Of a DNA stretch of 64,000 bases, positions 7,055 through 63,567 are shown in pieces; the stretch's first letter is position 1; each line of letters opens with the position of its first letter. The position numbers and the translations under genes are program-made. The notes below the pieces were generated by a model, which had not been told where the DNA came from, made no database searches, and saw nothing but the letters and a program-made list of their open reading frames with translations. The DNA comes from Acidobacteriota bacterium (GTDB lineage: Bacteria; Acidobacteriota; Blastocatellia; UBA7656): positions 310,001 through 374,000 of the forward strand of contig JBBPIG010000003.1 in the NCBI GenBank assembly GCA_038040445.1, read 5' to 3'.

Positions 7055-7064
7055 AATGGAATGA

Positions 7065-7122
7065 CGACCGCAGACGGACGACCATCGACGGTCGCCCGTC
7101 GCCCGTCGTCCGTCGCCTGACT
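7065..7122. repeat. Short-word palindromic spacer (GACGACCG/CGTCGCC type)
   Basis: Between the HlyD and ATPase genes the sequence has GACGACCGCAGACGGACGAC followed after a short gap by CGTCGCCCGTCGTCCGTCGCC, so the second half is roughly the reverse complement of the first. It is a short member of the spacer class seen throughout the window. Confidence 0.6.
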
Positions 7123-7142: not shown

Positions 7143-8105
7143 ATGTCGGCAGCAATCGAGATCAACGGACTGACTAAGAGATTCGGCGTAGTGACTGCCG
7201 TCGACGGCCTCAGCCTCTCCGTCGAAGGGGGCGAGATATTCGGCTTTCTAGGTCCCAACGGATCCGGCAAGTCGACGCTGATCAGGATGCTGTGCGGCTT
7301 GATATCTCCGACGGCTGGCAACGCTCGGGTTGCCGGCTTCGACATCCTCACTGAAACCGACGCCGTTCGCCAGACCATCGGCTATATGTCGCAGCAGTTC
7401 AGTCTCTATCAAGACCTGACCGTGTGGGAGAACGTGAACTTCTACGCGCACGTTTACGGCTTGACGGGCGAGAGGCTCAAGCGGCGGCGCGACGATGTCA
7501 TAGAGCTGACCCACATTGGACCATTTCGCGATCGTCGCGCCGGCGCCCTATCGGGCGGATGGAAGCAAAGGTTAGCTCTGTCGTGCGCGCTCGTGCACGA
7601 GCCGAAGATCATCTTTCTTGATGAGCCAACGGCGGGCATCGACCCGGTTGCGAGACGCGAGCTGTGGGATTTGTTCTTTCAACTATCGGGGAAGGGCATA
7701 ACGTTGTTCGTGACGACGCACTACATGGACGAAGCCGAACGCTGCACGCGCGTCGGCTACATCTTCAACTCGAAACTGATCACTTACGGCAGACCCGATG
7801 AGTTGAAGCAACTATCCGATGTGACACCGGCGGACGCGAAATGGGTTGAAGTGACTTGCCCCAACACGACTGTCGCGCTTGGTGAATTGAAGAGCGCGGC
7901 CTATGTGCGCGACGCGACGATCTTCGGCCAGTCGATTCATTTGCTCATGGACGCAAGCGAGCCGCTCGATCGAATTAGACAGACGCTCGCGCAGATAGGC
8001 ATCACCGAGGCGGAGATCACTCCTGCGCACCCGTCGCTTGAAGATGTGTTTGTGACTCTGACGAAACGGTTCACGGAGAATGGGAGCGGGGTTCCGAGTT
8101 CGTAG
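7143..8105 (+). CDS. ABC transporter ATP-binding protein (YbhF-like, single domain)
   Basis: 320 residues. Walker [10 protein letters not shown] is at 37-45, the signature reads LSGGWKQRL and Walker B is [13 protein letters not shown], followed by the H-loop in [12 protein letters not shown]. The Trp at the last signature position, where most ABC proteins have Gln, also occurs in the YbhF group, so it is not a defect. The C-terminal 80 residues are the usual extension of exporter ATPases. It powers the adjacent permease. E. coli YbhF is a fusion of two ATPases whereas this is one domain, so a homodimer is expected. Confidence 0.93.
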
Positions 8106-8175
8106 TTCCGGGTTCCGGGTTGATTCGATGCTCCAGTCCAACTCGGAACTCTGAACCCGAAACGCGGAACTGAGT
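8103..8175. repeat. Short-word palindromic spacer (GTTCCGGGTT type)
   Basis: The spacer between ATPase and permease carries GTTCCGGGTTCCGGGTT, then a loop, then AACTCGGAACTCTGAACCCG and a further CGGAACT, the approximate reverse complement. It lies inside an operon, so the mRNA should carry the hairpin. Confidence 0.65.
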
Positions 8176-10718: not shown

Positions 10719-10800
10719 GACCGGCGACCGAAGACCGACGACGGATGACAGCTCGGGTGTCGGCCGCCGACGTCGGTCGCCGGTCCTCGGTCGCCGGTCG
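10719..10800. repeat. Short-word palindromic spacer (GACCGGCGACCG type)
   Basis: GACCGGCGACCGAAGACCGA near 10720 is mirrored by GTCGGTCGCCGGTCCTCGGT near 10773, with TCGCCGGTCG after it. It separates the SprT-like and VWA genes on the minus strand and could form a long hairpin. Confidence 0.75.
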
Positions 10801-10805
10801 TTGTG

Positions 10806-12118: not shown

Positions 12119-12262
12119 CACAGGGTTCAGGGTTTCTGGCTTCGGGTTTCTGGTTTCTGGTTCTTGACTACGACAGTGGACATCGGACGCCAGAAGCCGA
12201 TACCAGTGACCAAGAACTAGAAACGAGAAACCACAAACCAGAAATCACAAACCAGAAACTAT
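12119..12262. repeat. Short-word palindromic spacer (TTTCTGG type)
   Basis: GTTTCTGG words repeated near 12129-12165 (GGGTTTCTGGTTTCTGGTTC) are mirrored by AACCAGAAA words near 12210-12260 (CACAAACCAGAAATCACAAA). The arms are imperfect. The whole 12006-12411 interval contains no other feature except the ribosome site of galT. Confidence 0.75.
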
Positions 12263-12411: not shown

Positions 12412-13515
12412 ATGGCTGAATTCAGTCCGGAGCTGCGGAAAGATACGATCAGCGGCCGGTGGGTAATCATTTCGTCGGCGCGCGCCCAGCGGCCCGAAGC
12501 TCCGGAGCCGCGACGAGAAGAAGAGACGCCGGAGGCGCGCGCGCGTTGTCCCTTTTGTTATGGGCGAGAGGACCAGACTCCCCCCGAGATATTCGCTATG
12601 CGAAAAAAGGACGAGATTCCAAACACTCCCGGATGGCTCACCCGCGTGGTGCCTAATAAGTTTCCCGCATTCGGGATCTTTCCTGAGATCAATCTGCGTC
12701 GAGTTGGCATGTTCCAGATCGCAACCGGTTACGGCGCGCATGAGGTCGCGATCGAATCGCCCGACCACGACACCTACCTTGAGCACCAGCCGCTTGACCA
12801 GATCGCCCGCATTGTCGACACCTGGTGGGAACGGCACGTCGATCTCGAACGTGACCGCAAGCTGAAATACGTGTTGTTATTCAAGAATCACGGCAAGGCT
12901 GCCGGCGCTTCGCTCACTCACCCGCATGCTCAGATAATCGCGACGACGGTCATCCCCGACGCGCTTAAGAGCAAGCTGCGCCATGCGAAGGACCATTTCG
13001 TCAACGGCGAGGGCTGCATTTGGTGCCGCCAGCTCGATCAGATGTTCTACTACGAGAACAAGATCTACAACCCGGACGGGACAGTGCTGGTAGCGGTTCA
13101 TCAGCGCGATCGCGTCGTGGCGGAAAACGAGAAATTCGTCGCGTACATCCCGTTCGCTCCGCGCATGCCCTACGAGATTCACATACTTCCGAAGAACCAT
13201 CAGTGCTCGTTCATTCAAACATCGTCCGAAGAGCGATTAGAGCTTGCGAAGATGTTGAAGCTGGTGTTGATGAAGGTCTACAAGATGCTGGGCAATCCGG
13301 CGTACAACTTCTACATTCATTCGGCGCCCAATCTAAACGTTATGCCTAGAACCGGCGACTACGGCACGATCCGCGAAGACTTTCACTGGCACATCGAGAT
13401 ACTGGTGCGAACTACCATATGGGCGGGATTCGAGCAAGGGAGCGGCATGTACATCAATCCGCTCAACCCGACCGACGCCGCGCGGTATCTGGCAGAGACT
13501 GAAGTTGATGCGTGA
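12412..13515 (+). CDS. galT: Galactose-1-phosphate uridylyltransferase
   Basis: 367 residues from the ATG at 12412, which has a strong ribosome site (GGAGGAGAG at 12402-12410); the frame stays open back to 12337 but without support. RKDTISGRWVIISSARAQRP starts the family, CPFC is a zinc-binding pair, and THPHAQ is the HIT-type active site whose second His carries the UMP intermediate. A second C-x2-C (CIWC) may complete the metal site. The enzyme exchanges UMP between UDP-glucose and galactose-1-phosphate (Leloir pathway). No other galactose gene is adjacent. Some short GalT-like proteins act on other nucleotide sugars, so specificity is likely but not proven. Confidence 0.9.
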   Translation: MAEFSPELRKDTISGRWVIISSARAQRPEAPEPRREEETPEARARCPFCYGREDQTPPEIFAMRKKDEIPNTPGWLTRVVPNKFPAFGIFPEINLRRVGMFQIATGYGAHEVAIESPDHDTYLEHQPLDQIARIVDTWWERHVDLERDRKLKYVLLFKNHGKAAGASLTHPHAQIIATTVIPDALKSKLRHAKDHFVNGEGCIWCRQLDQMFYYENKIYNPDGTVLVAVHQRDRVVAENEKFVAYIPFAPRMPYEIHILPKNHQCSFIQTSSEERLELAKMLKLVLMKVYKMLGNPAYNFYIHSAPNLNVMPRTGDYGTIREDFHWHIEILVRTTIWAGFEQGSGMYINPLNPTDAARYLAETEVDA

Positions 13516-13624
13516 AGGGTGATGCGTGAAGCGTAATGCGTGATATGCAGAGCCCGCTTGGGATTCTAAGGCCGCAGTCACGCATCATGGATCACGGATC
13601 ACGCATCACGCATCACGTATCACT
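13516..13624. repeat. Short-word palindromic spacer (GATGCGTGA type)
   Basis: GGGTGATGCGTGAAGCGTAA with more ATGCGTGA words (13518-13543) is mirrored by CACGGATCACGCATCACGCA words (13578-13622). It lies between the convergent galT and yraN genes and overlaps the last codons of yraN. In RNA from either strand it would fold as a long hairpin. Confidence 0.8.
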
Positions 13625-14092
13625 CCTGAAGTATCTGCTCCTTTGAAACACTCGATCGTCGAAGTACCCGCGCAGCAACTCGATCTCATCGCCGCTCGCG
13701 CCCGGCAGAACGGTCACCACGTCGTAGCGGTAGGGCTCCTCGAAGACCTTCATCAACTGGCGATATCGCCTTGCGGCTTTGGCTATTTGGCGCTGCTTTC
13801 TCAGGTCGACCGCTCGTTCGGGCGCCGCCAGATCGTCCGACGTGCGCGTCTTCACTTCGACAAATGTCAGCGTCTTGCCATCGTAAGCGATGAGGTCAAT
13901 CTCAGCGGTCAGCTTCTGCCCGCGAAGTCCTCTTCCAAGCGGCACTCGAAAGTTGGTGGCTACGATTTGATAACCCTCGTGCTCTCTTAGGTAGTCGAGC
14001 GCGATCCGTTCGCCGCGTGCGCCCAGTTCCAAATGGGCCGCGCGAGCCGGGCCGATTCGCCTTCGTAAGACCCCTTTGATCCCGTCAATCAT
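13613..14092 (-). CDS. YraN family protein (UPF0102), predicted nuclease fold
   Basis: 159 residues. LGARGERIALDYLREHEGY and then AEIDLIAYDGKTLTFVEVKT carry the conserved E-x-D and E-V-K residues of the PD-(D/E)xK-like UPF0102 family. The core ends near residue 125; the last 30 residues are less conserved and finish in the palindromic spacer. The biochemical role of the family is not settled. It is convergent with galT and divergent from der. Confidence 0.9.
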   Translation of the reverse strand: MIDGIKGVLRRRIGPARAAHLELGARGERIALDYLREHEGYQIVATNFRVPLGRGLRGQKLTAEIDLIAYDGKTLTFVEVKTRTSDDLAAPERAVDLRKQRQIAKAARRYRQLMKVFEEPYRYDVVTVLPGASGDEIELLRGYFDDRVFQRSRYFRSDT

Positions 14093-16140: not shown

Positions 16141-16198
16141 GCCGAAAGTTTCCTCCCGGAGCGCGCGCGTTGAAAGTCGATGGAACAGAAAGGGACAA

Positions 16199-16312
16199 GA
16201 ATTGAAAATTGAAAATTGAAAATTAGAAATTGAAAATTGCGGCACGGCTTTGGAGTCTCCGGCCAATTTGAAATTTTCAATTTCTTCTAATTTCAATTTT
16301 CAATTCTCTCTC
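16199..16312. repeat. Short-word palindromic spacer (AATTGAA type)
   Basis: AATTGAAAATTGAAAATTGA words (16200-16238) are mirrored by AATTTCAATTTTCAATTCTC words (16265-16308). It lies between convergent genes and is much more AT-rich than the surroundings. The same layout occurs with other words elsewhere in the window. Confidence 0.85.
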
Positions 16313-16334
16313 GCTTCTTAGCGCGCTCTCTAAC

Positions 16335-22777: not shown

Positions 22778-23061
22778 CTAGCAGGGTGCTGAAAAAGCCA
22801 AACGGGGCCACACTAGGGAGGGCCGAGAATCCCACCAACGCAGTTGGTGGTTCGTTCATATCCGACCTGGCTCTGATCAGCCGGAAAATGAATCGGAGCG
22901 GAGAATTAGGCTGGGTATGAACGATCCACCAACTGCGTTGGTGGGATTCGGGACCCCGGCCCAGTGTCTCGTGTAGGCTGGGTATGAACGATCCACCAAC
23001 TGCGTTGGTGGGATTGCATCTGAATACTCGTGTATCATCGGCTTTTTCAGCACCCTGCTAG
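22778..23061. mobile_element. 284-bp MITE-like element with 22-bp perfect terminal inverted repeats
   Basis: The ends CTAGCAGGGTGCTGAAAAAG... at 22778-22799 and its exact reverse complement at 23040-23061 define the element; CTAG at each end may be a 4-bp target duplication. Inside are three copies of the hairpin CCACCAAC(GCA/TGC)GTTGGTGG at 22832-22850, 22926-22944 and 22993-23011. The second and third lie in a direct repeat of about 40 bp (GGCTGGGTATGAACGATCC...). No coding capacity; it was presumably mobilised in trans. Confidence 0.85.
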
Positions 23062-46068: not shown

Positions 46069-46460
46069 CGAAAGGGTTTCGCTCCATTCACGAAAAGCGC
46101 CGCCGCTGCCTGCGACACTCGTTGGTAGAGGAATAGGCGGGGCAGTCCAAATGGACTTCGGCTGCCACACCTTATTTGGATCGCGGCGGCCTCCGACTAC
46201 TGGTGGACCAGGGACGCGCTCGCCGCCAGTTTTGGAGTTGAGTCAGAAACGCGAATAGTCAACGGGTCCCGAAAGTGTTTCGCGCCATCCACCCAAAGCG
46301 CCGCCACTGCCTGCGACACTCGTTGGTAGAGGAATAGGCGGGGCAGTCCAAATAGACTTCGGCTGCCACACCTTATTTGGATCGCGGCGGCCTCCGACTA
46401 CTGGTGGATCAGGGACGCGCTCGCCGCCGGTTTTGGGAGTCGAGTCAGAAACGCAAATAG
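46069..46460. repeat. 201-bp imperfect tandem duplication upstream of the kinase gene
   Basis: Positions 46069-46269 and 46270-46460 align at a period of 201 bp with few differences; long identical runs include GCGACACTCGTTGGTAGAGG and the stretch after it. Each copy holds a hairpin GGCAGTCCAAAT(G/A)GACTTCGGCTGCC, and GCAGTCCAAAT also occurs in the MITE at 17739-17961. No reading frame is conserved between the copies. The second copy ends 100 bp before the kinase start, so promoter elements may be included. Confidence 0.9.
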
Positions 46461-46561
46461 TCTTCTGGCGCCGAATGACTCGGGAAGTGATTCTCTTTCT
46501 TGCTACACTCATTCCGCGTTTGGTATATCATCGGAATCGCTTTCAACCCGAACGGTGACTT

Positions 46562-55547: not shown

Positions 55548-55624
55548 TGCCGACGGTTCCGGGTTTGCGGTTCCGGGTTCAACCTGAACCCTGAACCACG
55601 AACCCTGAACCTGAGTTCAGGAGT
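55548..55624. repeat. Short-word palindromic spacer (GGTTCCGGG/CCTGAAC type)
   Basis: GGTTCCGGGTTTGCGGTTCC and GGGTTC are mirrored by GAACCCTGAACCACGAACCC and CCTGAAC. It separates the repeat protein from the first complete ADOP permease; its last bases abut the ribosome region. Confidence 0.75.
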
Positions 55625-55628
55625 ACGT

Positions 55629-58064
55629 ATGCAAATTCTTTGGCAAGATGTTCGTTATGGCGTGAGAACGCTGCGGGGTAATTTCAGCTTCACTCTCATA
55701 GCCATCGTCGCCCTGGCATTGGGAATCGGCGCGAACACCGCCATCTTCAGCGTGGTCAATGCCGTTCTTCTGCGTCCGCTGCCGTACCGGGATGCCGGCC
55801 GCATCGTAGCTATTCAGGAAATCACAAGAGAGGGCAAGCGCATTCAAGTGACGCCCGCGAATTTCCTGGACTGGCGCGCGCAGAACACCGTCTTCGAACA
55901 TCTGGCTGCGATTCTCGAACGCACGTCGAACCTTGCCGGCACGGACCAGGCCGAGCGCATCAACCTCGTCATGACCTCGGCAAACTTCTTTCAGGTGTTC
56001 GGCGCGCAGCCGCAGCGCGGGCGATTATTCCTTCCGGAAGACGAACAGGCCGGGCATCCTCCGATTGTCGTCCTCGGTCACGGGTTGTGGCAGCGGCGCT
56101 TCGGCGGCGACCCCGAGATCGTCGGCAAATCCGTCACGCTGGACGGCAAGGGCTACGCCGTCGTAGGGATCGCGCCGGCTGGCTTTCAATATCCCGGTAA
56201 GACCGACGCGTGGCTGCCGCCGCTCAGACTCGCGCCGGCAGTCAACGACACAATGGATGTGACGCGGGTGCGCGGCTTCGGATTCCTGAGCGCGGTGGCG
56301 TTGCTGAAGCCGGGCGTCCCGCTCGGGCAGGCGCAAGCCGAGATGGAAACGATCACCACTCAGTTGCGGGAGCAGTACCCCGAAACCAACAACAGGCGTT
56401 TCGACCGCGTCGTCACCCTGCACACGCATCTGGTCGGCGACACAAGCACGGTGTTGTGGCTGCTTCTGGGCGCGGTCGGCTTCGTCTTGTTGATAGCCTG
56501 CGCCAACGTCGCGAATCTGATGCTTGTGCGCGCAACCGCCAGGCAAAAGGAGATTGCGATCCGCACCGCGCTTGGCGCATCGCGGCTGCGCATCATTCGA
56601 CAACTGCTTACCGAAAGCGTGATGCTCGCGATTACCGGCGGCGCGACGGGACTGTTGCTGGCCTGGTGGGGAATAGACTTGCTGACGCGCCTGCTGCCGA
56701 AAGATTTCCCGAGGCTTCAAGACATCAACTTAGATCTGACCGTGCTCGGCTCGACTATCGTTGTTTCCCTGATTACCGGCATCGTGTTTGGCTTCGCTCC
56801 CGCGTGGCAAGTCTCGAGAACCGATGTTAACGAAACGCTGAAAGACAATTCGCGAGGCGCAATCGGCGGCGGCGTCGGCAACCGACTCCGCAGTCTGTTC
56901 GTCGTCGCGGAAGTCGCGCTGTCGCTGGTACTGCTGGTTGGCGCGGGACTTCTGCTTCGCAGTTTCCTTCAACTGCAATCCGTCAACACCGGCTTCAATC
57001 CGGCGCAGGTGTTGACCATACGTTTGAGTCCTTCGGGTACGAACTTCCGCGAAGATCCGCAATACATCGCCTACTACAAACAAGTGACCGAACGGATCAG
57101 TGCGATCCCGGGGGTCGAGTCGGTCGGCGCAATCAACACGCTGCCGTTGGCGAAGGGTCCGACCGCGGGTTTCCGAATCGAAGGCCGCCCGCTACTGCCC
57201 GCCGATCAGTGGCCCGGAGGAAACTATCGCAATGTCAACCCCGATTACTTCCGCGCCTTGAACATCCCGGTGGTGCAAGGCCGCGGCTTTGAGGAGAGGG
57301 ACAACGCCTCGGCTCAGCTTGTCGCGATGATCAACCAAGCTACGGCCGACCACGATTTCGCGGGCGAGAATCCGGTCGGCAAACGCATCAACTTCGGCGG
57401 CGTCGATAGCAAACGCCAACCGATCTGGTTCGAGATCGTAGGCGTTGTGGCCAACGTTCGGAGCATTGAGTTGAAGGAAGACCCGTTGGCGGAAGTGTAC
57501 ACCGCTTCGCTGCAGGATGCTTTCGTCGGCATGTCGATTGTCATACGCACGACAATCGAGCCGGCGGGTTTGACCGCCGCGGTGCGGCAGGCTGTGCAAG
57601 ACGTGGATCGAGCGCAGCCGATTTCGGAGATCCGAACGATGGACAACGTCGTCAGCGAGTCGGTAACTCAGCCGCGTTTCAACCTCACGTTGCTGGGCAT
57701 CTTCGGCGGCATCGCGCTGGTTTTGTCGGCGGCTGGAATCTACGGCGTGATGGCTTATACGGTGGCGCAGCGAACGCATGAAATCGGCATTCGCGTTGCG
57801 CTGGGGGCTAAGGCTCCCGACGTGCTGCGGATGATACTAGCTCAAGGTTTGCGATTGACGGCCATCGGTATCGTGATCGGCTTGGTGGGCTCGATGCTGC
57901 TAACAAGGTTCTTGTCCACGCTCTTATTCGGCGTGAGCCCAACCGACCCGCTGACCTTCGCGGTCGTCGCATTGTTTTTGATGGGAGTGGCTCTCGTAGC
58001 CTGTTTCGTGCCGGCCCGTCGCGCCGCCAAGACTGATCCGATGGTGGCGCTGCGATATGAATAG
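55629..58064 (+). CDS. ADOP family ABC permease, copy 1
   Basis: 811 residues with MacB-like periplasmic core domains and FtsX-like membrane segments duplicated in tandem. The start QILWQDVRYGVRTLRGNFSF and [20 protein letters not shown] are typical of the acidobacterial duplicated orphan permeases, as is the C-terminal [10 protein letters not shown]. About eight membrane segments are expected. The cognate ATPase is not encoded here, hence 'orphan'. The family is thought to be secretion or efflux related; no substrate is known. It is the first of four consecutive copies. Confidence 0.93.
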   Translation: MQILWQDVRYGVRTLRGNFSFTLIAIVALALGIGANTAIFSVVNAVLLRPLPYRDAGRIVAIQEITREGKRIQVTPANFLDWRAQNTVFEHLAAILERTSNLAGTDQAERINLVMTSANFFQVFGAQPQRGRLFLPEDEQAGHPPIVVLGHGLWQRRFGGDPEIVGKSVTLDGKGYAVVGIAPAGFQYPGKTDAWLPPLRLAPAVNDTMDVTRVRGFGFLSAVALLKPGVPLGQAQAEMETITTQLREQYPETNNRRFDRVVTLHTHLVGDTSTVLWLLLGAVGFVLLIACANVANLMLVRATARQKEIAIRTALGASRLRIIRQLLTESVMLAITGGATGLLLAWWGIDLLTRLLPKDFPRLQDINLDLTVLGSTIVVSLITGIVFGFAPAWQVSRTDVNETLKDNSRGAIGGGVGNRLRSLFVVAEVALSLVLLVGAGLLLRSFLQLQSVNTGFNPAQVLTIRLSPSGTNFREDPQYIAYYKQVTERISAIPGVESVGAINTLPLAKGPTAGFRIEGRPLLPADQWPGGNYRNVNPDYFRALNIPVVQGRGFEERDNASAQLVAMINQATADHDFAGENPVGKRINFGGVDSKRQPIWFEIVGVVANVRSIELKEDPLAEVYTASLQDAFVGMSIVIRTTIEPAGLTAAVRQAVQDVDRAQPISEIRTMDNVVSESVTQPRFNLTLLGIFGGIALVLSAAGIYGVMAYTVAQRTHEIGIRVALGAKAPDVLRMILAQGLRLTAIGIVIGLVGSMLLTRFLSTLLFGVSPTDPLTFAVVALFLMGVALVACFVPARRAAKTDPMVALRYE

Positions 58065-58276
58065 GGTCAAGGTTCAGGGTTCAGGGTTCAGAGTTCAGGG
58101 TTCAGGGTTCAGAGTTCAGGGTTCAGAGTTCAGGGTTCAGAGTTCCGGGTTCTCAGGGTCTGCTTAGAAAAACATTGAAGCTAGCGAATGAACCCTGAAC
58201 CCTGAACCCTGAACCCTGAACCTTGAACCCGAACCCTGAACCCTGAACCCTGAACTCTGAACCCTGAACCCAGGGA
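58065..58276. repeat. Long palindromic spacer of GGTTCAG words
   Basis: The left arm, about 58065-58158, is a run of GGTTCAGGGTTCAG and GGTTCAGAGTTCAG words. After a loop of about 32 bp, the right arm about 58191-58271 is the reverse complement, CCCTGAACCCTGAACC and GAACTCTGAACCC. The last word ends just before the ribosome site (AAGGAG at 58279-58284). The stem could reach about 80 bp. It contains no frame. Confidence 0.9.
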
Positions 58277-58292: not shown

Positions 58293-60797
58293 ATGGAAAC
58301 CCTTTGGCAGGATCTGCGCTTTGGCTTGCGAATGCTGTGGAAGAAGCCTGGCTTTGCGATCATAGCGGTTTTTACCCTGGCCCTGGGCATTGGCGCGAAC
58401 ACGGCGATCTTCAGCGTGGTGGATGCGGTCCTGCTCAGACAGCTTCCTTACCCGGCAGCCGAGCGGCTGGTGTTCCTATGGTCGACGATGCACGCGCAGG
58501 GTGTTCCGCAATCCGGAAGCGCGATGCCCAATTACCGCGAGTGGCGCGACCAGAATCAGAGCTTCGAGGGACTGGGCGGGTTTTACTACGGCGACTTTAA
58601 TCTTTCCACCGCCAACAACGAGCCGGAGCGCGTGCAGGGAGCTTACATCACCCACAACCTGTTCGACGTGCTCGGAGTAGCTCCTCAGTTCGGCCGCACA
58701 TTCGCAGCCGAAGAGAACCAATTCGGCCAGCATCTTACCGTGCTGCTCAGCCACGGATTGTGGCAGCGGCGTTTCGGCGGCAATCTAGACATCATCGGGC
58801 GCGATATCAGACTTGGCGGCGAGAGCTTCATCGTCGCCGGAGTGATGCCGCCCGGTATGCCCTTCTTCGACAACCTCCCCGAAGTGGAATTGTGGAGACC
58901 GATTGCTTTTCCGCCCGGCGATAGTTTGGACACACGCAACAATCACTTCGTCAATCTTGTCGGCAGGCTTAAAGCGGGCGTGACACGCGAGCAGGCCCAA
59001 GACGACGTCACCGCCATCGCGCTCGGGATGGAAGCGCAGGAGCCAGGAAACAAGGGTCTGGGCGCATCAGTGGTGCCTGTCCAGGAGCAGCTTGTCGGCG
59101 AGTCACGCGCGGCGTTGTTGGTTTTGTTAGGCGCGGTCGCGTTTGTGTTGCTGGTGGCCTGCGTCAACGTAGCGAACCTACTGCTGGCACGCGCTGCCGC
59201 CAGAGAGAAGGAACTGGCGATTCGCGCCAGCTTGGGCGCAAGCCGCGCGCGGTTGATTCGCCAGATGGTGAGCGAGTGCTTGCCGATTGGACTACTTGGC
59301 GCGGCGGCTGGACTGCTGTTGGCGAATTGGGGCATCGAGTTGATCTCATCGCTGCTGCCGGCGTCGCTGCCGCGATACAACGCAATCGGCGTCGACGGCC
59401 GGGTGCTTGCCTTCACGTTCGTGGTGTCGTTGTTGACGGTTCTTCTCTTCGGGCTTTTGCCCGCGCTGCAATCGGTAAGAGAGGACGTGCGCGAGGCGCT
59501 CAACGAAGGCGGACGCAGCGGAATCGGCGGCAAGAGGCAGGGCACGCTGCGCAAGTTGCTGGTGGTATCAGAAGTCGCGTTGGCCCTGGTGCTGCTGATC
59601 GGCGCAGGGCTGATGGCAAGGAGCTTCATCAGACTGCGCGAGGTAGACACGGGTTTCAACGCGCGCAACGTATTGACGATGGGCGTGCCGCTGCCCGATG
59701 CGAAGTATCCGATCCCGCTCAACGCAGACGATCCGCGACACCCGGCGGCGATGGCTTTCTTCGATCAATTGCTCGCGCGGGTGGAAGCGTTGCCCGGTGT
59801 GAAGAGCGCGACGATAGGCACGATTGTGCCGCTCGGGGCCGGAACCGGATGGGGTAAGTTCTTCAGCGTTGAAGGCGGCGCGGCGCCGCCGTCGATCGAT
59901 CAGGTTCCGCTGGTGCGGTTTGGGTTAATCGGCCACGACTACTTCCGGACTTTTGGCGTTGCCTTGCAGCAAGGCCGCGAGTTCACTCCGCAGGACAACG
60001 AGGACTCGCAGCCGGTGGCGATAATCAACGAGACGCTCGCGCGGCGTTTCTTCCCGAACGAGGACCCCGTCGGCAGAACAATATGGATGGGACCACCGGA
60101 ATACCTGCTCCCGCCCGAGGCCCAAACGCCCGCGAATCGGTCTCCCCGCCGGGTGATTGTCGGAGTGGTAGCCGATGTCAAAGGCCGCAGTTTGAATCAA
60201 CCGCCCTCGGCGATGGTGTACGCGCCGTATCATCAATACAGGCGCGAAGGGTGGACCAACTCGATGATGCTCGCCGTGCGCACCGAGACCGCGCCGGCGG
60301 CAGTAGCGTTGGCGATCAAGAGTAAGGTGAGCTCCCTCGACCCGGATCAGCCGGTCAGCAACGTACGAACCATCGACGAGCTGCTCGGCAGATCGCTTTC
60401 GGAATCAAAGTTTACTTTGCTGCTGCTGGGTCTTTTTGCCGGAGTGGCCCTGGTGTTGGCCGCGATTGGAATCTACGGTGTCATTGCCTACTCCGTCAGC
60501 CAGCGAACTCATGAGATCGGCGTCCGTCTGGCGCTTGGCGCGCAAGCGGGCGACGTGTTCAGGCTGGTGATAGGGCAAGGGATGATGCTGACCTTGATCG
60601 GCGTGGCAATCGGATTGGCGGCTGCGTTGGCGTTAACCAGGTTGATGGTGAGTTTGTTGTTTGGAGTCAGCGCGACCGATCCGTTGACGTTCGCGGTGAT
60701 CGCCCTGCTGCTGACGAGCGTGGCGCTGCTGGCCTGTTATATCCCGGCTCGGCGGGCGACGAAAGTGGACCCGATGGTGGCGCTGAGGTACGAATAG
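58293..60797 (+). CDS. ADOP family ABC permease, copy 2
   Basis: 834 residues, the longest of the set. [20 protein letters not shown] opens the protein and [18 protein letters not shown] follows; [20 protein letters not shown] and VALRYE at the end show the same architecture as copies 1 and 3. The internal extracytoplasmic domain differs most from its neighbours, as expected if paralogues have diversified. The ribosome site AAGGAG lies 8 bp before ATG 58293, directly after the palindromic spacer. Confidence 0.93.
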
Positions 60798-61008
60798 GTT
60801 CAGGATTCAGGGTTCAGAGTTCAGGGTTCCGGGTTCAGGGTTTCTAGTTTCTGGTTTATGGTTTCTGGTTCCAATCTCGTAACCAATAATCAGAGAGGAG
60901 ACGCCCGAAGCAGGAAACCAGAAACCAGAAACGAGAAACCCTGAACCCGGAACCCTGAACCCTGAACCCGGAACTCTGAACCCGGAAACCCGGAAACCCC
61001 GAAACCGG
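60798..61008. repeat. Nested two-word palindromic spacer (GGTTCAG then TTTCTGG)
   Basis: The left side runs GGTTCAGGATTCAGGGTTCA words and then GTTTCTAGTTTCTGGTTT words. After a loop near 60880-60915, the right side runs AACCAGAAACCAGAAA words and then ACCCTGAACCCGGAACCCTG words. The words appear in mirror order (A-B, loop, B'-A'), as needed for one continuous hairpin. GGAGG at 61007-61011 is the ribosome site of copy 3. Confidence 0.9.
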
Positions 61009-61016
61009 AGGTAACT

Positions 61017-63470
61017 ATGGAGACTTTCTTTCAAGATATGCGTTACGGTCTGCGGCTCCTGATCAAGCGGCCGGGCTTTACCGCGGTGGCGGTCATCGCG
61101 CTCGCCCTGGGCATCGGCGCCAACAGCGCGATCTTCAGCGTCGTGAACGGCGTAGTGTTGCGAGCCTTGCCCTACAAGGACCCCGAGCAACTGATGATGG
61201 TCTGGAGCAAGAGACCCTTGCTTCAAGCGCAAGTGGGCTCCGCCGAATTTCCGGTCTCGGCCGGTGACTTCATCGATTGGCGGGACCAGAATCAAGTCTT
61301 CGAACAGATCGCTGCATTTCACACTCAGCCGTTCAACATCACCGGCGCCGGTGAGCCCGAGTTTCTTGGCGGCGTGCGCGCGTCGGCCAGCTTGTTTTCA
61401 TTGCTTGGCGTCGAGCCGAAGCTCGGCCGGACCTTCACGGTTGACGAGGACCAGCCGGGCGCTGGTCAAGTGGTGCTCATCAGCCACGGGCTATGGCAGC
61501 GGCGCTTCGGCTCCGACCCGAACATAGTAGGCCAGAAGCTCACGCTCAACGATCAGCCTTACACCGTCGTGGGCGTGTTGCCGGCCGGGTTCCAATTCCC
61601 GCGCAAGGGCGAGATGCCCGCCGGCTACCAGTTCCCACGGCAAGCGGATCTCTACACACCGCTTGCCTGGACTCCCGCGCAAGCCACCAACCGCGGACGG
61701 AACTTCCTCGCGGTGATCGCGCGACTCAAGCCGCAAGTCACCATCGAGCAAGCTGGGGCCGAGATGGATGCCATAGCGGAGCAGTTGAAGCAGCAGTATC
61801 CGCAGACCAATACCAACAAGGAAGCCTTCCTTGTAGCGCTGCATCAACAAGTCGTCGGAAAAGTGCGCACGGCGTTGCTGGTGCTTCTGGGCGCGGTGGG
61901 TTTTGTGCTTTTGATCGCCTGCGCGAACGTCGCCAACCTTTTGCTGGCCCGAGCCGCTTCTCGGCAAAAGGAGATGGCGATTCGCACCGCGCTCGGCGCA
62001 AGCCGTTTTCGTGTGATCCGGCAGTTGCTGACAGAAAGCGTGCTTCTGTCTTTGGTCGGAGGAACACTCGGGCTGCTTCTCGCGCTCTGGGGGATCGAAC
62101 TGCTTCTGGCGATCAGCCCCGGCAACTTGCCTCGCATCGATACGATTGGGATTGACGGGCGGGTCTTCGCCTTCACGCTGGCGATCTCGGTGCTCACAGG
62201 AATCGGTTTCGGTTTAGCGCCGGCCATCCAGGTCTCGAAGCCCGACCTTAACGACGCGCTAAAAGAAGGCGGTCGCGCGTCATCTGTCGGCCATAACAGA
62301 TTTCGTGGCCTGCTGGTCGTCTCCGAGGTAGCTCTATCGCTGGTGCTGTTGATCGGCGCGGGACTGATGATCCGCAGCTTCGTCGCACTGCTCAACGTCG
62401 ATCCAGGGTTGAACGCGAAGAACGTACTGACCCTTGATATCGGGCTGCCGCGAACCAAGTACACGGGTCCGCAGCAGACTGCGTTCTTTGAGCAGGTCAT
62501 CGCTCGGCTGCAAGCTTTACCGGGAGTGCAGTCGGCGGGCGCGGTCTATCCTTTGCCGCTCAGCGGCGCCGAAGAAGGGATGGGCTTCAACATCGACGGA
62601 CGGCAATCGGTTCCCGGGCAGGCATTCAACGCAGGTCCGCGGTGGGTCAGCAACGAGTACTTCAACACGATAGGTATTTCGTTGCTCAGAGGCCGCGAGT
62701 TTACCGAGCGCGACAACGCCGGCTCGCCGCGAGTGGTGGTCATCAATGACGCGATGGCGCGCGCTTACTGGCCCGATGAAGATCCGCTCGGCAAGCGCGT
62801 ATCGTTCGATCAGATCAACGAAGCGCCCAATTGGCGTGAGATCGTCGGCGTTGTGAGAGACGTCAAGCACTCGGCGGTGGATGCCAATTCGAAGCCCGAG
62901 ATGTACTTTCCGTTTCCACAATTCCCTTTGTTTTTCATGACGGTGGTCGTGCGCACAACCGGCGATCCGCTCAACCTGGTCGCGGCCGCCCGTAGCGAGG
63001 TGCTGGCGGTGAATGCGGACCAACCGATCTCAAATATTCACACGATGGAAGAGCTGATCGCGAATTCCATCGCGCAACGGAGATTCAACATGCTGCTGCT
63101 GGGTATCTTTGCCGGGGTGGCGTTGTTGCTCTCCGCGGTTGGAATCTACGGCGTGATGTCTTACTCGGTCGCTCAGCGCACGCATGAGCTGGGGGTGAGG
63201 ATGGCGCTGGGAGCCCAGACTTCTCACGTCGTTTCGCTGGTCGTGAAACAGGGGATGGCGCTTGCGTTGGCTGGAGTGGGTATCGGATTGGCGGCGGCGT
63301 TCGCATTGACCCGCATAATGGCGAGCTTGCTCTATGGTGTGAGCGCGACAGACCCGCTGACCTTTTCGGTTATTGCGGTGCTGCTGGCGTCGGTGGCGCT
63401 GTTGGCTTGTTATCTCCCGGCGCGTCGCGCGACAAAGGTCGATCCCATGATCGCGCTGAGGTATGAATGA
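61017..63470 (+). CDS. ADOP family ABC permease, copy 3
   Basis: 817 residues. ETFFQDMRYGLRLLIKRPGF at the start, ALGIGANSAIFSVVNGVV, and at the end [32 protein letters not shown] marks the first FtsX-like block. It aligns over its full length with copies 1 and 2, so the three arose by duplication. GGAGG lies about 6 bp before ATG 61017. Confidence 0.93.
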   Translation: METFFQDMRYGLRLLIKRPGFTAVAVIALALGIGANSAIFSVVNGVVLRALPYKDPEQLMMVWSKRPLLQAQVGSAEFPVSAGDFIDWRDQNQVFEQIAAFHTQPFNITGAGEPEFLGGVRASASLFSLLGVEPKLGRTFTVDEDQPGAGQVVLISHGLWQRRFGSDPNIVGQKLTLNDQPYTVVGVLPAGFQFPRKGEMPAGYQFPRQADLYTPLAWTPAQATNRGRNFLAVIARLKPQVTIEQAGAEMDAIAEQLKQQYPQTNTNKEAFLVALHQQVVGKVRTALLVLLGAVGFVLLIACANVANLLLARAASRQKEMAIRTALGASRFRVIRQLLTESVLLSLVGGTLGLLLALWGIELLLAISPGNLPRIDTIGIDGRVFAFTLAISVLTGIGFGLAPAIQVSKPDLNDALKEGGRASSVGHNRFRGLLVVSEVALSLVLLIGAGLMIRSFVALLNVDPGLNAKNVLTLDIGLPRTKYTGPQQTAFFEQVIARLQALPGVQSAGAVYPLPLSGAEEGMGFNIDGRQSVPGQAFNAGPRWVSNEYFNTIGISLLRGREFTERDNAGSPRVVVINDAMARAYWPDEDPLGKRVSFDQINEAPNWREIVGVVRDVKHSAVDANSKPEMYFPFPQFPLFFMTVVVRTTGDPLNLVAAARSEVLAVNADQPISNIHTMEELIANSIAQRRFNMLLLGIFAGVALLLSAVGIYGVMSYSVAQRTHELGVRMALGAQTSHVVSLVVKQGMALALAGVGIGLAAAFALTRIMASLLYGVSATDPLTFSVIAVLLASVALLACYLPARRATKVDPMIALRYE

Positions 63471-63473
63471 AAT

Positions 63474-63567
63474 CGATTTTGGATTTTGGATTTCGGGAAT
63501 TCGATAAAAGAGAAACGAGCTCGAAGGCTTCAATCCAAAATCCAAAATCTAAAATCCAAAATCTAAA
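63474..63567. repeat. Short-word palindromic spacer (GGATTTTGGATTT type)
   Basis: GATTTTGGATTTTGGATTTC near 63475 is mirrored by AATCCAAAATCCAAAATC words near 63532-63565. AT-rich, unlike the spacers between the previous copies. It lies between ADOP copies 3 and 4. Confidence 0.85.

Follow-up and report, generated by a model that had tools for sequence, protein, structure and literature searches.

What gives rise to a long DNA palindrome written in one short, tandemly repeated word between two genes, and what keeps its two arms matched? This question is raised by a spacer in a 64,000-nucleotide stretch from an Acidobacteriota bacterium (class Blastocatellia; assembly GCA_038040445.1, contig JBBPIG010000003.1, positions 310,001 to 374,000), here termed the window and used for all coordinates given without contig name. 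In the spacer at 58065-58276, two heptamer arrays with the word GGTTCAG face each other across a loop:

55629-58064, plus strand: ADOP family duplicated permease (TIGR03434, profile score 1025.9 bits), upstream neighbour
58065-58276, no strand assigned: focal hairpin, word GGTTCAG, between two ADOP permease genes
58063-58152, plus strand: 5' arm of the focal hairpin, (GGTTCAG)13 with variants, 85% match
58153-58188, plus strand: loop of the focal hairpin, about 37 nt
58189-58271, plus strand: 3' arm of the focal hairpin, (CTGAACC)12, reverse complement of the 5' array, 92% match
58293-60797, plus strand: ADOP family duplicated permease (profile score 993.4 bits), downstream neighbour
61017-63470, plus strand: ADOP family duplicated permease (profile score 1082.1 bits)

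The hairpin begins immediately after the TAG stop codon of the upstream permease gene (58062-58064), with which the 5' arm shares its first two bases, and its end is separated by 16 bp, including AAGGAG, from the ATG (58293) of the downstream permease gene. As predicted in an earlier note on this DNA, the spacer can form a stem of about 80 bp: its computed RNA fold is a single stem with -149.4 kcal/mol, compared with a mean of -75.9 (sd 5.1) for shuffled sequences (z -14.4).

The window contains ten spacers with inverted arrays, in keeping with the at least nine given in the earlier note. Besides the focal one, these are:

63475-63567, no strand assigned: hairpin, word GGATTTT/AATCCAA
60797-60982, no strand assigned: composite hairpin (-127 kcal/mol) with outer GGTTCAG and inner GGTTTCT arms, core CTCGTAACCAATAATCAGAGAGGAGACGCC
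55554-55611, no strand assigned: short hairpin, GGTTCCG/GGTTTGC arm with CTGAACC arm
16190-16316, no strand assigned: hairpin, word AATTGAA; same spacer without array in the same-genus genome G001
13492-13638, no strand assigned: hairpin, word GATGCGT, between convergent genes; present in G001 too
12124-12253, no strand assigned: hairpin, word TTTCTGG; without array in G001
10719-10801, no strand assigned: hairpin, word GACCGGC/GACGACC; GGTCAGA hairpin in the same spacer of G001
8105-8170, no strand assigned: short hairpin, word GTTCCGG
7063-7110, no strand assigned: short hairpin, word GACGACC/CGTCGCC

The words of the window comprise GGTTCAG, GGTTTCT, GATTTTG, AATTGAA, GATGCGT, GACCGGC, GACGACC and GTTCCGG as well as mixtures. 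Of the originally described word of 7-10 bp, the repetition stands and the range of lengths does not, since the unit is 7 bp and no other short period is enriched. Eleven period-7 arrays were found in the window, and none at any period in Markov shuffles of it. Across 816 kb of the 6.75-Mb genome (72 contigs; sampling partly chosen for array-rich ones), 108 period-7 arrays compare with 1-8 for each other non-harmonic period from 3 to 30. In 520 kb of G001, the sole other genome found in the genus (about 80% identity at anchors), period 7 yields 42 arrays, period 12 yields 6 and the remaining periods from 4 to 11 yield 0-1 each, and period 7 is likewise the sole enriched short period at Pirellulales loci. 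Period 7 also dominates in G009 and G013, two distant members of the same class, with weaker second periods at 8-9 and 9, respectively. In G013, period 9 accounts for 17 arrays versus 53 at period 7, and at C7:47321-47471, 106228-106369 and 108871-109060 of this genome the 9-bp word GAGTCTTGG stands outside and a 7-bp word (GACAAGT type) inside.

Two further repeats were observed in the window. A 201-bp unit is present in two direct copies (93% match) at 46069-46462, just upstream of an ORF for a protein kinase-like product of 1220 aa. The stretch 22780-23060 is a dispersed MITE-like element with 20-bp terminal inverted repeats AGCAGGGTGCTGAAAAAGCC and copies of ATCCCACCAACGCAGTTGGTGG in its interior; in G001, related stretches are numerous and occur in both orientations.

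Hairpins from the studied genome, G009 and G013 were placed relative to genes called by codon usage. In the studied genome (n=67), 52 are located in co-directional, 7 in convergent and 3 in divergent spacers, and 5 inside ORFs. Over the three genomes, divergent spacers are depleted, harbouring 5 of the 102 intergenic hairpins versus about 18% expected (p=1e-4), and convergent spacers harbour 18. ORF-internal hairpins decreased from 19 of 114 with a first greedy gene call to 10 of 113 with the codon-usage call, indicating that many of the ORFs concerned are shadow ORFs. In co-directional spacers, the hairpin starts at a median of 6 (studied genome), -1 (G009) and 3 bp (G013) past the upstream stop codon, and the next start codon follows within less than 40 bp in 73 of 99 cases. 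The median start is 3.5 in a Pirellulales sample and -0.5 in Wenzhouxiangella and other Gammaproteobacteria; the values for Phycisphaerae (216) and for Verrucomicrobiota/Lentisphaerota/Kiritimatiellae (13.5) derive from samples that are too small (n=2 each).

The polarity of the arms is fixed. Exact GGTTCAG pairs converge in all 29 cases in the three genomes, with none in the opposite orientation. Considering all words, G exceeds C in the 5' arm in 101 of 107 decided cases (56 of 62 in the studied genome, 25 of 25 and 20 of 20 in the other two), the exceptions stemming largely from words like ATTTTCC, GATTGCC and GACGACC. An excess of T over A in the 5' arm is found in the studied genome (52 of 67), but not in G013 (6 of 21).

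An element specific for ADOP genes was dismissed: 30 of the 67 hairpins adjoin such genes, yet 37 lie elsewhere. From the side of the genes, a heptamer hairpin lies no more than 250 bp away from 33 of the 47 ADOP genes on the sampled contigs, which, with sampling partly in favour of array-rich contigs, is an association rather than a definition. The ADOP expansion of this genome is very large (69 TIGR03434 matches, 58 above cut-off), with 35 matches on the 182-kb contig C12 and further ones at C3:365638-381069 and on C10. Together with TIGR03436, this family suggests Acidobacteriota as the phylum of the genome.

A fixed architecture of this kind had been taken to belong to no named class, which is only partly so, since the hairpins match the gene placement of inverted GGGAATC arrays in Xanthomonas, the closest known case (70-75 inverted pairs in X. 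campestris and X. axonopodis; Rehm et al. 2015, PMC4692102). Both share the 7-bp unit and inverted pairing, are intergenic near the upstream stop codon and rare in divergent spacers, and form converging pairs whose 5' arm is the G-rich one. However, the arrays of Xanthomonas and those of Nostoc (GGGGA(C/T)T; PMC4692102) use one word type per genome and are interpreted as G-quadruplex sequence, whereas in the present hairpins each genome uses at least a dozen words, several of them without G runs (AATTGAA, ATTTTCC), the stems are long and mirrored, and the word is replaced at a given spacer. In the P6b stem of the trnL(UAA) group I intron of Nostoc (Class I TDNGATT, Class II NNTGAGT; PMC4476775), two words likewise do one structural job in a stem of 7-nt repeats and lineages switch between them, but this concerns a single intronic locus and two word classes. 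According to Mrazek et al. 2007, as cited in PMC4679880, heptamers are the most abundant class of long SSRs in most genomes studied, a length possibly linked to the contact length of the polymerase; these are direct arrays, and the account as cited there involves neither an inverted layout nor orthologous comparison. REP/BIME elements and GTAG-/CGTC-tagged palindromes (PMC3733652) are also many-copy extragenic palindromes near gene ends, but REP/BIME belong to fixed sequence families of 20-40 bp, in contrast to about 50-250 bp of tandem heptamers without local RAYT. Finally, homogenised arms and inverted spacers or loops are known outcomes of template switching (PMC8604942, PMC8794818), and the surplus of 5' G-C and U-A pairs that stems display was attributed to intrastrand switches correcting to the 5' base (PMC8794818). 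The present hairpins resemble those cases in arm homogenisation, loop inversion and 5' G-C excess, but the latter concern RNA genes and yeast coding DNA rather than heptamer arrays.

The arms are matched beyond their word. Compared with shuffled heptads of one arm, the true heptad order yields a better match, with p<=0.05 for 58 of 81 hairpins and p<0.005 for 29 of 81, and the local variants or mixed words of one arm recur in mirror order in the other, e.g., GGTTCAG then GGTTTCT at 60797-60982. Such mirroring would not be expected if each arm slipped independently, in line with the earlier suspicion that plain slippage can hardly explain the layout. Age gradients from base to tip were found neither in arm complementarity (p=0.69) nor in period-7 identity (p=0.67), and inside-out growth, in which units nearer the loop are younger, was discarded on these grounds.

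Comparison with G001 covered 43 orthologous spacers: 8 carry arrays in both genomes, 4 only in the studied genome, 2 only in G001 and 29 in neither. Co-occupancy has a Fisher p of 1.2e-4 at the permissive array threshold of 9 and of 0.058 at either 10 or 12; hardly any arrays of period 6 or 8 occur at orthologous spacers. The word is changed at five of the eight shared sites, and a sixth changed site was seen separately (studied genome/G001):

C3:114525: GTAGTCC/TTGGTCA
C3:121474: AATTGAA/GGGGTTG
C3:130830: AGCAAAG/GGCAGAA (also GGCAGTA)
C3:134510: GACGACG/GTAGTCC
C3:320719 (window 10719): GACGACC/GGTCAGA
C3:256385: GTAGTCC/GGCAGAA (sixth site, from the first gene call)

Three of the eight shared sites retain the word, and at 13492-13638 the units are altered relative to G001 with arms complementary in both species. 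Constancy of layout under a varying word, first noted between loci of the window, thus extends to two species at one spacer. The partner arm is short or lost at C3:114525 and C3:194666, and a full second arm is not established for every G001 array. Relics of the sister species' word at the hairpin edges (C3:114525, 130830 and 134510) point to a stepwise takeover by the new word inside a standing hairpin. The dominant words differ as well, being of the GGTTCAG type in the studied genome and GGCAGAA, GGTCAGA and GTAGTCC in G001.

Palindromes also occur in apparently nested form. The spacer at C3:246810-246916 contains the palindrome CCTGGGAGCGCAGGC, and its counterpart in G001 (L258) a GTCAGAA heptamer hairpin after CCTGGGAGCAGGC, as if one palindrome were nested in another. 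A further palindrome, CCGCCTTCAGGCGG, and its reverse partner are nested concentrically in heptamer arms at C12:32906-33051 and C30:6836-6954 of the studied genome (G000) and at C7:24167-24367 of G013; the pair is also found by itself close to a Y1 transposase gene (L205).

Among the options raised in the earlier note, growth or upkeep of the palindromes by template switching appears to fit best, considering the mirrored heptad order and the word replacement at orthologous spacers; the argument proceeds from this pattern and not from observed mutations. The G-rich 5' arm agrees with the 5' G-C excess (PMC8794818) in all three genomes, the T-over-A half of the same prediction in the studied genome only. 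We regard it as moderately probable that these palindromes are long-lived residents of the spacers, that slippage replaces their units and polymerase template switching restores the match of their arms, and that some of them also spread as a whole.

Alternatively, the hairpins may be selected as RNA structures, i.e., as 3'-end or inter-cistronic stabilisers or for decoupling genes, a role for which any pairing word would serve. Their very stable fold, their start at a median of -1 to 6 bp past the stop codon in all three genomes with the next start usually less than 40 bp away, the depletion from divergent spacers and the coincidence of arrays with different words at orthologous spacers agree with such a role. 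Selection for RNA pairing would, however, be expected to tolerate G-U and so to favour it over A-C mismatches on the sense strand, and little of this tolerance is seen, G-T and A-C mismatches between the arms amounting to 173:146 (p=0.15); moreover, four occupied spacers of the studied genome lack an array in the sister species, and a search of the window against Rfam 15 at gathering score gave 0 matches. This second option of the earlier note thus lacks support at the RNA level and is considered unlikely. A DNA-level process, combined with a tolerated position past the stop codon, is therefore placed first, with RNA function and transposition kept as possible contributors.

Transposition would imply mobile MITE- or REP-like families, one per word, that land repeatedly in tolerant post-stop sites and replace or nest in each other. 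Part of the hairpins is indeed dispersed as whole units: about ten relatives of the composite hairpin at 60797-60982, sharing its core CTCGTAACCAATAATCAGAGAGGAGACGCC, occur in the studied genome, several of them beside unrelated genes, where similarity stops at the element ends, and cores lie either way relative to the flanking genes, as expected from loop inversion by template switching (PMC8604942, PMC8794818). Dispersed cores were also found in G009 and several Pirellulales MAGs, and the different dominant words of the two sister species likewise suit such families. The loops, initially described as unique, are unrelated in most same-word hairpins, but not in this core-sharing subset, which alone shows the dispersed copies with unrelated flanks typical of MITEs; hairpin boundaries are blurred by the heptamer arrays. 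The exact GGTTCAG hairpin recurs on 70 contigs (Planctomycetota, Gammaproteobacteria (Wenzhouxiangella), Verrucomicrobiota, Lentisphaerota, Kiritimatiellae, Methylomirabilota and one Nealsonbacteria bin), a search with one word that reveals recurrence rather than relative word frequency. Contamination is possible for single MAG contigs; Wenzhouxiangella limi C33, listed as a strain and not a MAG, has two GGTTCAG hairpins (NZ_JAAGSC010000039.1). Identical words in several phyla would fit mobile families, and the cores are unrelated between phyla. Against such families stand the many same-word hairpins with unrelated loops, the arms made of variable-length tandem heptamers instead of fixed terminal repeats, and the sister-species word relics at three swapped sites. 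None of the seven Y1/RAYT transposases of the studied genome is encoded within 1.5 kb of an array, which also led to rejection of RAYT-driven REP spread. Carriage by phages was rejected as well, the exact GGTTCAG hairpin being present in only 6 stretches (4 contigs) of 2.9 million viral contigs. Mobile families as the general explanation are hence judged improbable, to about the same degree as a selected RNA structure.

Bidirectional or intrinsic transcription terminators would account for the position past stop codons and for the 18 hairpins in convergent spacers, but TTTT within 12 nt after the stem accompanies only 4 of 99 co-directional hairpins. This scarcity of T-runs, together with mostly scant room for a promoter before the next start codon, speaks against intrinsic termination and makes a terminator function very unlikely. 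The hairpins are therefore neither intrinsic terminators, Rfam RNAs nor RAYT-linked REPs. Assembly artefact or chance is practically refuted already: contigs C3 and C23 do terminate in or near arrays, but independent assemblies from several genera and phyla are all dominated by period 7, and shuffled sequences contain no arrays.

In the favoured process of slippage and template switching, heptamer units would be gained, lost and converted through replication slippage, and in a folded-back strand the polymerase could copy one arm from the other (quasi-palindrome correction). Such copying would preserve complementarity despite drift of the word and could flip the loop; it would thereby allow a new or variant word to take over both arms with layout and place unchanged. 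Finished hairpins may occasionally be copied whole into other spacers, and their persistence just past stop codons would be due to insertions there harming neither coding sequence nor promoters. Hairpins with the next start codon less than 40 bp downstream (73 of 99 co-directional cases) are probably transcribed, and one may guess that they then act as inter-cistronic mRNA hairpins like BIMEs. Several points stand against this process: drift alone does not predict the recurrence of GGTTCAG in several phyla, co-occupied spacers could just be insertion-tolerant ones, co-occupancy weakens to p=0.06 at stricter array thresholds, and no base-to-loop age gradient was detected.

As far as the literature searched shows, the use of so many words, the length and mirroring of the stems, the recurrence in several phyla and the word replacement at orthologous spacers are new. 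Tentatively, and with some doubt, one may speculate that post-stop heptamer hairpins represent a widespread intergenic class in several phyla, inherited as place and shape, in which the word is replaced within a genus and the structure is kept by template switching or selection on the stem alone. They offer a natural system of many loci for studying the origin of long DNA palindromes and the upkeep of their match, as the hairpins of a single genome number from dozens to hundreds, each with two arms to compare and units that are small and can be counted. The finding bears on the dominance of heptamers among long bacterial repeats, on base-pair asymmetry in stems, and on the question whether intergenic structure can last without any conserved sequence, which would escape homology searches.
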